From contig JAJFVF010000021.1 in the NCBI GenBank assembly GCA_021371935.1, positions 1 to 64,000 on the forward strand: a stretch of 64,000 nucleotides of DNA, in the 5' to 3' direction. A model generated the notes under the pieces. That model ran no database searches, was not told the origin of the DNA, and saw only the letters and a list, made by a program, of their open reading frames with translations. Positions 44,445 through 49,293 of this stretch are shown in pieces; position 1 is the first letter of the stretch; each line of letters starts with the position of its first letter. The stretch is from a bacterium (GTDB taxonomy: Bacteria > Armatimonadota > UBA5829). Position numbers and translations under genes: made by a program.

Positions 44445-45782
44445 TCAATCAACAGAAACTTTATCACGCGGGTTCTTGCCGCCCAGGCGGAGCCGGAGAT
44501 TGTGTATGAACTTATTGAATATACTTGCTATTCTGGCCACTTTCCATGCGAGTTCGGTCTGTGGGTCTTTGAAACGATAGTCCAGGTTCAATCCGTCTTC
44601 AACCAACAGCCCGTCTTCACGAATCTTATCCACCAGAGGCACACCATGATAGAGAAGGACTTTCGACATGGGCACCGGACCATGATAAAGCCCGGTCTCT
44701 TTTATAAACCTCATATTCTCCTGGATCTCGTCGATGGTGGCATATGGATCGAACATGATGAAACCCGGTTCCACTCGCACGCCTGCATTATGGCATATCT
44801 CGATTGCTCGCCTGTTCTGCTCGACGCTGATGCGTTTGCCATATGTGTCCAGTTGGCGCTGCACCCCGGACTCGATCCCCAAAAACAGACACAGCAGACC
44901 AGCCCGCTTGAGTATTTTTAGAGTCTCCTCGTTCATCTCATCGGCGCGAGCCTCTGTGTTGAACTTGATCTTGAGGCCGCGGTCTATTATCTCCTGGGCT
45001 ATCTTAACCACACGAGCCTGGCTTTTTTCTCCCGGTCCTATAAAATCATCATCAATGAACTCAAAGTCACGGTGACCTGTCTCCTCGATCACACTCTCGA
45101 TCTCATCGACGAAATTGGCCGGGCTGCGAAACCGTGGACCATGCCCGCCCGAAACTGCATAAAACGAATTGATAGAACAAAAAGAACAGTTGTTATAGCA
45201 CCCTCTGCTGCCCGCAATCAGAGCCTGGGTCATCACGGAACGGTGCTTCTGCTTAAGGGCATCGCGCGCTGGAAATGGCAGGCTGTCCAGGTCTTTTATC
45301 AGAGGTGGAGGCTGATTGACTACAACACGCTCGCCATCAAGAAACGCTACGCCCGGCGCATCGTGCCAGTCCTCGCCCCTGTCTATCCTGCCGAAAACAT
45401 CGCGGGTAACGTTCTCGCCCTCACCTCGCACCATAAAGCTGATCTCAGGACATGCCTTCAGAAAAAGCTCGGTGGCAAGTGTCGGCAGATAGCCGCCTAA
45501 AATAATCGGCAGGCTTGGTCTGGCTTTGCGGATGGCACGCACAGTCTCCATAACGGAGTCCTTGTGCTGGTGCATGGCAGTGATTCCAAGGCAATCATAT
45601 TCTCTGGAAAGCAGCTCGTTGATAACTGCGCCCGTCTTCAGGCACCTCATATGAGCGTCGAATACTTCAACTTCGTGGCCATCTGCCCTTAACACAGATG
45701 CTATATATCCTATGCCAAGGCTCTCGGTCCTGTAATTGCCCACCTTGCCCGCCGTTGGCGGATGCAAAAGTAGAACTCTCAT
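44445..45782 (-). CDS. B12-binding radical SAM protein
   Basis: A 445-residue protein with an N-terminal cobalamin-binding-like domain (LLLHPPTAGKVGNYRTESLG, GHEVEVFDAH, LGITAMHQH, IILGGYLPT at residues 1-130) and a radical SAM domain. The [4Fe-4S] motif is GCYNNCSFCS near residue 195 (CxxxCxxC), followed by FEFIDDDF and EARADEMNEETLKIL. The usual D-x-H-x-x-G of B12 domains is not clear, so cobalamin may not be bound in the base-off way. These enzymes methylate or rearrange unreactive carbons. No substrate can be inferred, and the neighbours (HD-GYP genes) give no clue. Confidence 0.87.
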   Translation of the reverse strand: MRVLLLHPPTAGKVGNYRTESLGIGYIASVLRADGHEVEVFDAHMRCLKTGAVINELLSREYDCLGITAMHQHKDSVMETVRAIRKARPSLPIILGGYLPTLATELFLKACPEISFMVRGEGENVTRDVFGRIDRGEDWHDAPGVAFLDGERVVVNQPPPLIKDLDSLPFPARDALKQKHRSVMTQALIAGSRGCYNNCSFCSINSFYAVSGGHGPRFRSPANFVDEIESVIEETGHRDFEFIDDDFIGPGEKSQARVVKIAQEIIDRGLKIKFNTEARADEMNEETLKILKRAGLLCLFLGIESGVQRQLDTYGKRISVEQNRRAIEICHNAGVRVEPGFIMFDPYATIDEIQENMRFIKETGLYHGPVPMSKVLLYHGVPLVDKIREDGLLVEDGLNLDYRFKDPQTELAWKVARIASIFNKFIHNLRLRLGGKNPRDKVSVD

Positions 45783-45867: not shown

Positions 45868-46572
45868 CTACAGTGATGAAGCCGGAAGCTTCATGGACGA
45901 TTCTCGCTCACTCTGCATCTGAACAAACGCTTCGGCCACGTCGGGTGCGTATTTTGTGCCGCTGTGACGCTTGATCTCAGCCAGAGCCTCCTCGCGGGTC
46001 ATCGGCACCGGGTGATACGGCCTTTCAGAGATCATCGCGTCATAGTCCGATGCTACTGCCAGAATCCTGCTCGGAAGAGGTATGTCTTCACCCCGTAGAC
46101 CTTCCGGGTAGCCGGAACCGTCCCAATACTCATGGTGATGCAAGATGTATCGCTCCAGGTCTGTTAGAAACGGAACCGCAGCTACCATTTCAGCGCCCAT
46201 GGCAGGGTGACTCTTGACCATATCCCACTCCTCGGCGGTGAGCGGATCCTTTTTGTTCAAGATCGCCTGCGGTACATTTGCTTTGCCTATGTCCATCAAT
46301 AAAGCGGCATACTCGATGCGCTCGAGTATCCTGCCGCGCATGCCCAGTCTGCGGGCTATCGCAACAGTCAACTGCGCAACACGCTGGGCATGGCCCACCG
46401 TACCTGAATCCCGCGTCTCAACCGCAGCCGCAAGGACCGTGATCGATTTCAAATAAGCGCTCTTCATTTTCCTGGGCAGGAAAATACGCGATACATACAG
46501 GCTCAGCACCGATATGCTCAGCGACATGAATACAAATATCAATACACCGGGGGTCAAACTTATATTAGACAT
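45868..46572 (-). CDS. HD-GYP-type protein with altered HD motif
   Basis: A 234-residue membrane-anchored HD-GYP protein: one N-terminal helix (VLIFVFMSLSISVLSLYVS), then the HD-GYP domain. Conserved parts are HAQRVAQLTVAIARRLG, SHPAMGAEMV, HHHEYWDGSGYPEGLRG and SDYDAM. The catalytic HD pair, normally HDIGK, reads MDIGK: the metal-binding His is Met. In HD-GYP enzymes this His binds the iron or metal centre, so c-di-GMP hydrolysis is doubtful. The ATG overlaps the stop codon of the next HD-GYP gene by eight bases, so the two proteins are made together and may form a heteromer in which this one is regulatory. Confidence 0.85.
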   Translation of the reverse strand: MSNISLTPGVLIFVFMSLSISVLSLYVSRIFLPRKMKSAYLKSITVLAAAVETRDSGTVGHAQRVAQLTVAIARRLGMRGRILERIEYAALLMDIGKANVPQAILNKKDPLTAEEWDMVKSHPAMGAEMVAAVPFLTDLERYILHHHEYWDGSGYPEGLRGEDIPLPSRILAVASDYDAMISERPYHPVPMTREEALAEIKRHSGTKYAPDVAEAFVQMQSERESSMKLPASSL

Positions 46573-48139
46573 TTGTCTTCACCCCGTCCCGGTCGATCAT
46601 TGTCAAAAATGCCTTCACTACCGTCGGGTCAAACTGACTGCCCGAACCACGCCTGAGTTCGTCAATCGCAGCATCCAGAGTCTTCGGTTCACGATATGTT
46701 CTGCGCTTGGGCGCGCCGCAGACCGGGCATATGTCGGGACGCTGACCATCAGCGGGCACATAACCGCACGAGTCACACTTCCATGCCAGAGTCAGCTCGC
46801 GATCGTCAGTCATGGCGTCAAACGCATCCACAGTCGCTATTATCATCGCCTCAAGAGGGATTGATGAACCATTTCCATTCGTGACCGGGTAACCGCTGCC
46901 GTTATACCACTTGTGGTGATACTTGATCCAGTCCACTATCGAGTCCAGGAACTCCAGATGGCTGATGATCTCGGCGCCCTTGACTGGGTGCTCCTTGATC
47001 TGCTGCCACTCGTCATCAGTGAGCTTGCCGGTCTTATCCAGAATCTCCTCGCTTACACCGATTTTGCCGATGTCATGAAGCATGCCTGCTGTGCCGATAA
47101 ACCGTATGCTCTCAATGGGCAAATTCAGCTCCCGCGCAAGCCTCTCCGATAAGTCGGCTACACGCTTCAGATGTCCTCTGGTGTACGGGTGATAGTGCTG
47201 CATGTAGGTCGCTAGGGTCGTGATTGTGCCTACGTATGCCTCACGCTCAGCTACCCACTGATTGAAAAAGTCCCTCAGAGCTATCACCGGTGTGGCAGCT
47301 ACCAGGAAACCAAGCAGGTGCAGATTGGCATACAGATAGGCTAGAGAGAGAGCCACGACACTCAGGAAAAGCTGGGGCTTGACAAGCGGAACGAACATTT
47401 CCACCGCTATTAATTTTGCACTGAGAATTATCTCGCGGAAAGATGCTCTACCGTCAGGTATGTTTACAGCGACCACTATAGGTATTGTTGTAAATACATC
47501 TGTAAAAACAGACACAGTTACGAGCGCAATAAAAGGCAATAGAAAATTATTAATAGTTGAAAAATCAGAACCTGTGGCAGTTAAGTTTTGTCCGCCGACA
47601 TAATAATAAGCCAAACCAGCGGGAGCAACAAACAGTACCAGGCAGCTAATAAACTGAAAATGCATTACAATATCTGCCCAGAATGAATTCTTTGATCGAA
47701 GCTGACCAGCCAAATCCTTCATATAGGAAATAAGTGAATGCAAGAACCTGATGAACAAACGAGGTAGGATTTTGCGCTTGCTATTGAGAAAATGTGAGAG
47801 GCTCTTTTCGTCAATACGCTCGATCACAATATGGGAAATATGTTTACTCAGGGAAACGGCAAGACCAGTTATAATGGCACATATTACTGCAGGAAATGGC
47901 CCAAGCACACATATTGCTGCCCAAAATAATGGGCAGCTTGGCGAAACAATATAACCCTTCTCCTGGTCAACATACACCGCCAAAAATTCTGCCAGAGCGA
48001 TCGCAATAGAAAACCATGCAACACCTGACCAAGGGTTTCCGATTATTGGTGTCTTGTAATATACAATAACAGTAAGTGCGGCAGCCATTATGAACAATGA
48101 CGCACATACTGCTATGTAATACCTCATCTGATTGCTCAT
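46565..48139 (-). CDS. Multi-helix membrane HD-GYP protein with inserted zinc ribbon
   Basis: A 524-residue protein. About eight to ten membrane helices occupy residues 1-290 (a MASE-like sensor). The HD-GYP domain has intact ligands: HTRGHLKRVADLSERLA (written here with Y-T-R-G-H), MLHDIGKIGVSEEILDK (near 355), KEHPVKGAEII, YHHKWYNGSGYP and TVDAFDAMTDDREL. Directly after this last motif an insert of about 33 residues contains CDSCGYVPADGQ then PDICPVCGAP: a rubredoxin/rubrerythrin-like ribbon with two CxxC pairs. The domain then resumes with TLDAAIDELRRGSGSQFDP. It probably hydrolyses c-di-GMP, with metal or redox input through the ribbon; this is inference. No good ribosome site precedes the ATG. 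Confidence 0.88.
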   Translation of the reverse strand: MSNQMRYYIAVCASLFIMAAALTVIVYYKTPIIGNPWSGVAWFSIAIALAEFLAVYVDQEKGYIVSPSCPLFWAAICVLGPFPAVICAIITGLAVSLSKHISHIVIERIDEKSLSHFLNSKRKILPRLFIRFLHSLISYMKDLAGQLRSKNSFWADIVMHFQFISCLVLFVAPAGLAYYYVGGQNLTATGSDFSTINNFLLPFIALVTVSVFTDVFTTIPIVVAVNIPDGRASFREIILSAKLIAVEMFVPLVKPQLFLSVVALSLAYLYANLHLLGFLVAATPVIALRDFFNQWVAEREAYVGTITTLATYMQHYHPYTRGHLKRVADLSERLARELNLPIESIRFIGTAGMLHDIGKIGVSEEILDKTGKLTDDEWQQIKEHPVKGAEIISHLEFLDSIVDWIKYHHKWYNGSGYPVTNGNGSSIPLEAMIIATVDAFDAMTDDRELTLAWKCDSCGYVPADGQRPDICPVCGAPKRRTYREPKTLDAAIDELRRGSGSQFDPTVVKAFLTMIDRDGVKTNV

Positions 48140-48371
48140 AGATAGACACCATACGCCAAAAAGAAGGGAATATGAGCTAATTTATGTCGATGAAGCAGAT
48201 TGTGCCACAGCTCATTACTATTCATGGTTGTACTGTACTGATAGATCGTGATTTTGTAGACAATATGTCTATTAGTAATTATGGCACGAAATACTGATGT
48301 ATGCAGGATTTACTTGAGCCAACGGCGGGCAGAGTCACAATCGTTTTTTTCAACAGCAATGAACCACACAA

Positions 48372-48461
48372 TTATCCTCTTGGAGGAAGAATGGTCCAGG
48401 GTGCTCCAGCAGATGCTGCAAGAGCGGCCAGCCCCAAAAGAACCTTGAACAAGCGACTCAT
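48372..48461 (-). CDS. Possible 29-residue secreted micropeptide
   Basis: The frame reads MSRLFKVLLGLAALAASAGA followed by PWTILPPRG and TAA. It looks like a signal peptide (basic start, Leu/Ala core, A-S-A-G-A cleavage region) with a nine-residue Pro-rich tail. A strong ribosome site (GAAAGGGG) lies nine bases before the ATG, and a structured leader precedes it. It may also be the remains of a larger exported protein cut by a stop. No homolog comes to mind. Confidence 0.4.
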   Translation of the reverse strand: MSRLFKVLLGLAALAASAGAPWTILPPRG

Positions 48462-48595
48462 GATTTTCAACCCCTTTCGGTCTTTGCTGGTCTGTATCGC
48501 TCAACAGACCGCGATAAAACCGCTTCGCTCGGGTTGAGTTTTCGCTTACTGCCTTCTCGCTATCGCCGTTGGCTCAAAAATTTGAAGAAGCGATA
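48462..48595 (-). promoter_or_regulatory. Structured leader upstream of the micropeptide
   Basis: On the minus strand the leader holds a hairpin GGTCTGT-TGAGCGAT-ACAGACC (48489-48510), a stem-like GCGAAAAC...GTTTTATCGC region with a GCGAAGC loop, and TCAACCC (48531-48537), which can pair with GGGTTGA (48467-48473) at the ribosome site. The ribosome site can thus be open or closed, as in a riboswitch or regulatory leader. It matches no class I know. The rest of the 48140-48651 gap holds the micropeptide frame, the hairpin at 48612 and no other gene I can support. Confidence 0.4.
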
Positions 48596-48611
48596 TACCT
48601 GTTTAGTCTGA

Positions 48612-48642
48612 TGGTTTGACTGTCCTCTACAGTCATCAAACC
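48612..48642. terminator. Hairpin after the conserved hypothetical gene
   Basis: TGGTTTGACTGT and ACAGTCATCAAACCA are arms with one bulge (plus strand), ten bases after the stop codon at 48652. No T run follows, so termination is uncertain. Confidence 0.45.
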
Positions 48643-48651
48643 ACAAACCAA

Positions 48652-49293
48652 TTATTCAGCAACACAAAGACGCCGGTTTATCGCATCCAATGTAGCATTC
48701 ACCACGCCCTTCCAAACATCCTGCTTGATTAGTGCACTTCCTGTCAATAAATCTTCACCACGGTTCGCAATCATACTCACCAGCACAACCGCGGCTCTGC
48801 GGCCACCTATCTGTGCTTCGACTGCATCCTCTAAAACGAAACTGCACTCCGCCTGCCCAAAATCCTCGACTGCTCGAAGAGTGGCACTTGCAATGAGCTT
48901 CATTTGACCATTCGGCGTTGGTGTGCCGCTGGCGGAACCAGAACATATGATGCCGTCCTTGGTGAGACGGACCGTGGCCTCCGTCCTGCTTCCATTGAGG
49001 GATATTGATACGTCGGTGAACTTCAGTCTTGAGTGATCGTAGCGGGGCGATGAACTGCCCGCCACTTGCGCTACAGATACTTTCTTATGGTCTATTGCGA
49101 TGCCTAAACGTGCCATTACAGCCGACTCGACATCGCGCACAACTTGTTTGGCAGACCTGTCCGAGCCTGTGAGCACATGTATCTCGGCTATCTCCCCCCG
49201 TTCATCCTCCACAACGCTGGCCGCAATAACATCCCTGAGTCTGCTTATTATAGACTCGATGTCGGCTGCGCTAACCTGGCGTTCCACTGCCAT
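48652..49293 (-). CDS. Conserved hypothetical protein
   Basis: A 213-residue cytoplasmic protein. The N-terminal half contains GEIAEIHVLTGSDRSAKQVV, RDVESAVMARLGIAIDHKKV and SVAQ, a pattern I recall from an uncharacterised family in Firmicutes-like and related bacteria in which the H-V-L, K-Q-V-V-R-D-x-E-S and I-D-H-K-K-I-S-x-A-Q motifs are conserved. The C-terminal half has beta strands and the QMKLIASATLRAVEDF helix. Ribosome site GGAGG lies eight bases before the ATG. It follows pheT by 34 bases on the same strand, so it may be co-transcribed with it. Function unknown. Confidence 0.72.
   Translation of the reverse strand: MAVERQVSAADIESIISRLRDVIAASVVEDERGEIAEIHVLTGSDRSAKQVVRDVESAVMARLGIAIDHKKVSVAQVAGSSSPRYDHSRLKFTDVSISLNGSRTEATVRLTKDGIICSGSASGTPTPNGQMKLIASATLRAVEDFGQAECSFVLEDAVEAQIGGRRAAVVLVSMIANRGEDLLTGSALIKQDVWKGVVNATLDAINRRLCVAE

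Follow-up and report, generated by a model that had tools for sequence, protein, structure and literature searches.

A rubrerythrin-type four-cysteine ribbon inserted in the HD-GYP domain of a membrane-anchored protein from one class of Armatimonadota

HDGYP1, a membrane-anchored HD-GYP protein of 524 aa encoded in a member of the Armatimonadota, carries a rubrerythrin-type C4 ribbon inside its catalytic domain, where it adjoins a motif that in a characterized homologue contacts the substrate. The gene lies at 46565..48139 on the reverse strand of the window, i.e., the whole 64,000-nucleotide stretch that was analysed, and is supported by its ORF, Pfam, PDB sequence matches and fold matches. 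Genes of the same locus that lack the ribbon are found in related genomes, and HDGYP1 is followed by a second, degenerate HD-GYP gene, HDGYP2. The original prediction, made from the sequence of the window, was of a rubredoxin/rubrerythrin-type ribbon of about 33 residues with two CxxC pairs lying inside an HD-GYP domain, and this proved correct.

Domain layout of HDGYP1

All segments of HDGYP1 are given on the reverse strand. The N-terminal part (residues 1-295, 47255..48139) is a multi-helix membrane region defined by hydropathy. It had been described as a large membrane sensor: the multiple transmembrane segments are indeed present, but the Pfam search matched the region to no known family and thus to no recognized sensor family. 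The HD-GYP catalytic core ahead of the insert (residues 301-446, 46802..47239) is delimited by Pfam, PDB matches and alignment with PmGH, the HD-GYP phosphodiesterase of Persephonella marina (4mcw; PMC4159591), and contains H323, H355, D356, K359, H384, H408, H409, the GYP motif G416-Y417-P418 and D438. In particular, Pfam assigns HD_5 at 1.6e-30 (residues 315-446) and HD at 8.6e-20, while in the PDB sequence search the solved HD-GYPs 5z7c and 4mcw match the first part of the protein and rubrerythrins match the insert. The ribbon itself (residues 448-480, 46700..46798) stands in place of the PmGH loop L10/11, as indicated by a RUBY_RBDX match above cut-off, by invariant cysteines and by its absence from syntenic orthologues. 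It is followed by R480-T-Y-R483 (46691..46702), the equivalent by alignment of PmGH R314-P-Y-K317, whose role is known from PMC4159591, and by the C-terminal part of the HD-GYP domain (residues 484-524, 46568..46690), defined by orthologue comparison and the AF2 model.

Upstream of HDGYP1 there is a gene-free stretch of about 510 nt (48140-48651), of similar length in several relatives. An RNA switch ahead of the gene was considered, but the stretch gave no Rfam match.

Identity and conservation of the ribbon

The insert comprises about 33 residues flanked by T444-D-D-R447 and R480-T-Y-R483, and its cysteines are C455, C458, C471 and C474. It matches the Pfam family RUBY_RBDX (PF21349) over residues 452-478 at 9.3e-8, scoring 31.8 bits where the cut-off is 26.5, and the same profile also matches 12 of 15 relatives at an E-value of 0.01. 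A profile of the ribbon in turn matches rubrerythrins of known structure at 3.7e-6. The top PDB matches of this profile, C2H2 finger arrays (2i13, 1mey), were discarded because their scores were summed over repeats, one half of the profile being matched repeatedly. Ribbons of the C4 type take up Zn just as easily as Fe.

Conservation of the four cysteines in homologues had been set as a test of the prediction, and they are indeed kept in every one of the 17 carriers: they are invariant in 16 of 16 aligned sequences and present in the 17th carrier (L009). A chance CxxC pattern, a frameshift or an assembly artefact is ruled out by this conservation in 17 genomes. Besides the cysteines, the 16 aligned sequences share the Asp that follows C455, two Pro (one three residues ahead of C471, the other just behind it) and the R-x-Y-R flank; most of the remaining positions vary freely. 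The insert is under purifying selection, with a dN/dS of 0.08-0.24 in the comparisons whose synonymous changes are unsaturated, and evolves faster than the HD-GYP core; exceptions are the cysteines and a small number of Pro, Asp and Arg residues. This faster evolution would suit a purely structural role, in which the ribbon staples an already lengthened variable loop and regulates nothing; indeed, in the insertless orthologues this loop is already several residues longer than in PmGH. However, the stapling of a short loop hardly explains why a whole ribbon is kept in four families with R447 and RxYR invariant among the ribbon proteins, which makes a role of this kind quite improbable.

Whether the insert would be ordered or disordered had likewise been put forward as a test. 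In the AF2 model of residues 280-524 (mean pLDDT 80, pTM 0.80), the insert has a pLDDT of about 70-80, in favour of a predicted ordered ribbon. The model matches DvhD (9rbz_D; Z 19.5, 198 aligned, rmsd 4.7), PmGH (Z 18.0, 206 aligned, rmsd 5.0) and PA4781 (Z 17.7, 192 aligned, rmsd 3.2). A ribbon-only model has a modest pLDDT of 67, and its Foldseek matches, none under an E-value of 0.001, are largely four-cysteine knuckles. These weak matches include RanBP/NZF fingers, rubrerythrins and LapB and are mostly Zn fingers; upon VIA re-alignment, only RanBP-type and related fingers were listed, at Z 2-2.8, too weakly to be of use.

Position of the ribbon relative to the substrate pocket

In PmGH the metal ligands are E185, H189, H221, D222, H250, H276, H277 and D305, and R314 and K317 contact guanine base-1 of the substrate, the loop L10/11 being better defined when c-di-GMP is bound (PMC4159591). 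The motif R-x-Y-R (R480, Y482, R483), invariant in ribbon proteins and insertless orthologues alike, aligns with R314-P-Y-K317, and the ribbon is therefore placed in L10/11. Two alignments differ on the counterpart of R314, which is R447 by pairwise alignment and R480 by MAFFT with the insertless orthologues; R480 is preferred because the insertless orthologues also have R-x-Y-R. Under either alignment the ribbon adjoins the substrate-contact motif, its last cysteine being 6 residues before R480 and its first 17 residues after D438, the equivalent of D305. This proximity, by sequence and by homology to PmGH (PMC4159591), would agree with the expected closeness to the active site.

This placement suggests that HDGYP1 may be a membrane phosphodiesterase with a metal-ribbon lid on its substrate loop L10/11, working with HDGYP2 as a pseudoenzyme, a reading that we favour tentatively and hold at somewhat less than an even chance. 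According to it, HDGYP1 would be a membrane-anchored c-di-GMP phosphodiesterase in which a four-cysteine ribbon derived from rubrerythrin extends L10/11. Bound Zn or Fe would fold the ribbon into a rigid lid, the metallated lid would fix L10/11 and position R480 and R483 at the guanine base, and substrate binding or turnover would in this way depend on ribbon metallation. HDGYP2 would join HDGYP1 in one membrane complex, as a pseudoenzyme with a regulatory or c-di-GMP-binding role. A lid over R480 and R483 need not matter for turnover, however, because in PmGH the R314A and K317A substitutions do not substantially lower activity (PMC4159591).

The catalytic site

Ligands were mapped on an alignment of PmGH with 22 HDGYP1 and 18 HDGYP2 sequences. 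HDGYP1 has the HD-superfamily fold (fold matches at Z 18-19.5). The HD dyad and the ligands H...HD...H...HH...D, the full set of seven binuclear metal ligands, are invariant in the 22 HDGYP1 orthologues, as are the counterpart of K225 and the GYP motif (G416-Y417-P418). The signature of the trinuclear subgroup (E/D-T-G, with an eighth ligand of the E185 type) is absent from HDGYP1, in which the counterpart of E185 is Y in 22 of 22 sequences. This Y places HDGYP1 in the Y/F, probably binuclear subgroup of PMC4159591. As judged from its family, HDGYP1 would be a c-di-GMP phosphodiesterase in both substrate and activity.

A caveat to the lid on L10/11 comes from D183, which is essential in PmGH. 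Its counterpart, residue 317 of HDGYP1, is His in all the ribbon proteins and in most insertless orthologues, and the catalytic competence of HDGYP1 is questioned for this reason. The same His would agree with HDGYP1 being a c-di-GMP receptor and not an enzyme, with a ribbon that aids binding or output; indeed, DvhD shows that a metal-free HD-GYP can serve as a membrane c-di-GMP receptor (PMC13090378). Yet HDGYP1, unlike DvhD, has the seven binuclear ligands, K225 and GYP without variation, so that a receptor of this type is very unlikely.

The degenerate partner HDGYP2 and the neighbourhood

HDGYP2 (45868..46572, reverse strand; ORF, Pfam, alignment) is a small HD-GYP protein with one predicted N-terminal transmembrane helix and a degenerate site, and its gene overlaps HDGYP1 by 8 nt. 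In the window, H221 is replaced by M93 and D305 by S175. None of the 18 HDGYP2 sequences has the complete set of metal ligands of an active HD-GYP phosphodiesterase: the HD histidine (H221) is lost in 18 of 18 (M in 8, R in 8, A in 1 and E in 1), and 16 have also lost the D305 ligand. In PmGH, the H221A substitution essentially abolishes activity (PMC4159591). Of 28 genomes of the class, 20 have both HDGYP1 and HDGYP2 and 7 have neither; in the last one (G018) the contig breaks off behind HDGYP1. Because retention and loss go hand in hand for the two genes, we infer that they form a functional pair. The genome also encodes 8 GGDEF domains and about nine HD_5 proteins, and c-di-GMP signalling is therefore present.

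This co-encoding with HDGYP2 can also be read in favour of the ribbon as a docking module, i.e., a knob held together by Zn that recruits a partner, be it HDGYP2, a GGDEF protein or a different one, and leaves the pocket unaffected. C4 ribbons often bind proteins, and the ribbon-only model has RanBP/NZF fingers and LapB as structural neighbours. On the other hand, the family with a ribbonless HDGYP1 retains HDGYP2 as well, so that the ribbon is not needed for the pairing of the two proteins, and by homology the ribbon sits in the substrate loop and not on a remote surface. A docking role thus appears rather unlikely.

Further features were observed around the pair. Between pheT and HDGYP1 lies u213 (48652-49293), a conserved protein of 213 aa with no Pfam match. 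Its position does not change across the examined part of the class, and in another family of the phylum a homologue likewise adjoins HDGYP1. The pair is directly followed by a gene for a B12-binding radical SAM protein (44445-45782), which also adjoins the pair in a congener (G002), but no such gene was found at this place in the remaining relatives examined.

Distribution and origin of the ribbon

The insert was found in 17 of 291 Armatimonadota genomes, all in the class of the window and all with the four cysteines. The carriers make up three families of the window's order and part of a fourth family of the class, while a fifth, sister family has an HDGYP1 orthologue without the insert. The gene order pheS-pheT-u213-HDGYP1-HDGYP2 is common to carriers and insertless members, and the insertless genes can thus be taken as true orthologues. 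In a tree built without the insert columns, one change is needed (support 93/99, and in 92% of bootstrap trees), which reads as a gain because the insertless family f8 is the outgroup. The distribution is therefore best explained by a single acquisition of the ribbon.

A scan of contigs returned at least 80 loci, and among the matches listed one has the insert, in an Armatimonadota MAG (L031, JAUSGG010000024.1). Using a search that recovered all known carriers at an E-value of 5e-45 or better, the insert was absent from 1193 sampled genomes of three other phyla: 0 of 400 in the phylum sample of L037 (Dehalococcoidia), 0 of 398 in that of L033 (Desulfotomaculum) and 0 of 395 in that of L035 (Desulfacinum). 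With 0 of 1193 in these samples, a widespread but overlooked insert is not supported.

Distribution also bears on a redox or iron sensor, in which Fe would occupy the C4 site and its oxidation state, or loss of the metal, would switch c-di-GMP hydrolysis, possibly through electron exchange with the catalytic iron pair. The best family match of the ribbon is indeed a rubrerythrin Fe ribbon, with the pattern C-x2-C-G-Y ... P-x2-C-P-x-C-G-A-x-K, and redox dependence has a precedent in Bhr-HD-GYP, which is active only in its ferrous form (PMC9388753). However, D or E replaces the Gly after the first knuckle in the fourth family, Bhr-HD-GYP senses via a separate hemerythrin domain, and no link was found between the insert and aerobic respiration, carrier genomes being found both with and without haem-copper oxidase. 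Such a sensor is accordingly judged unlikely, and distinctly unlikely is its wider version, in which an Fe(SCys)4 ribbon within the substrate loop would sense redox state or the supply of iron or zinc right at the active site and so gate c-di-GMP turnover, the enzyme being in complex with a dedicated pseudo-HD-GYP subunit.

Comparison with known systems

PmGH shares with HDGYP1 the catalytic fold, the metal-ligand set, GYP and the RxYK/R motif, but has a short L10/11, E185 and a triiron site; in HDGYP1, E185 is replaced by Y and D183 by H, and the ribbon is present. The rubredoxin-like domain of rubrerythrin (PF21349; 1ryt, 1b71) has the same two CxxC knuckles (CxxCGY...PxxCPxCGAxK); there, however, it is a C-terminal electron-transfer domain that follows a diiron four-helix bundle, whereas in HDGYP1 it is embedded in the HD-GYP domain. 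LapB (YciM), which does not carry electrons, also has a rubredoxin-like C4 ribbon attached; there the ribbon comes after TPR motifs and has its role in LPS regulation. LapB (9up5, 7t6d), a weak Foldseek match, has no link to cyclic dinucleotides. Bhr-HD-GYP of Ferrovum sp. PN-J185 (PMC9388753) likewise joins an HD-GYP domain to an extra iron-protein-type module, but this is a separate N-terminal hemerythrin domain with no C4 ribbon, unlike the insert within the catalytic domain of HDGYP1. For HDGYP2, a model is offered by DvhD of Desulfovibrio vulgaris (9rbz, 9rc0; PMC13090378), a degenerate HD-GYP in a membrane protein. In DvhD, HD is SQ and HH is substituted, whereas HDGYP2 retains D222 and HH and stands alone as a small protein with a single transmembrane helix.

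No description of an HD-GYP with such a ribbon was found in the open literature searched; an earlier mention elsewhere is possible. Within that literature the initial impression that no such protein had been described holds, and the design is apparently undescribed.

Biological meaning

HD-GYP proteins are usually regulated by separate sensor domains, while here a second, predicted metal site is grafted beside the substrate-contact motif, and the graft has been kept across four bacterial families. The insertless orthologues at the same locus provide a natural before/after pair for the function of the insert. In parallel, the conserved pair of an active and a degenerate gene, as predicted, lends itself well to the study of an HD-GYP protein with a pseudoenzyme as its partner. 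If the proposed role of the ribbon is true, signal breakdown in these bacteria may depend on metal or redox state.
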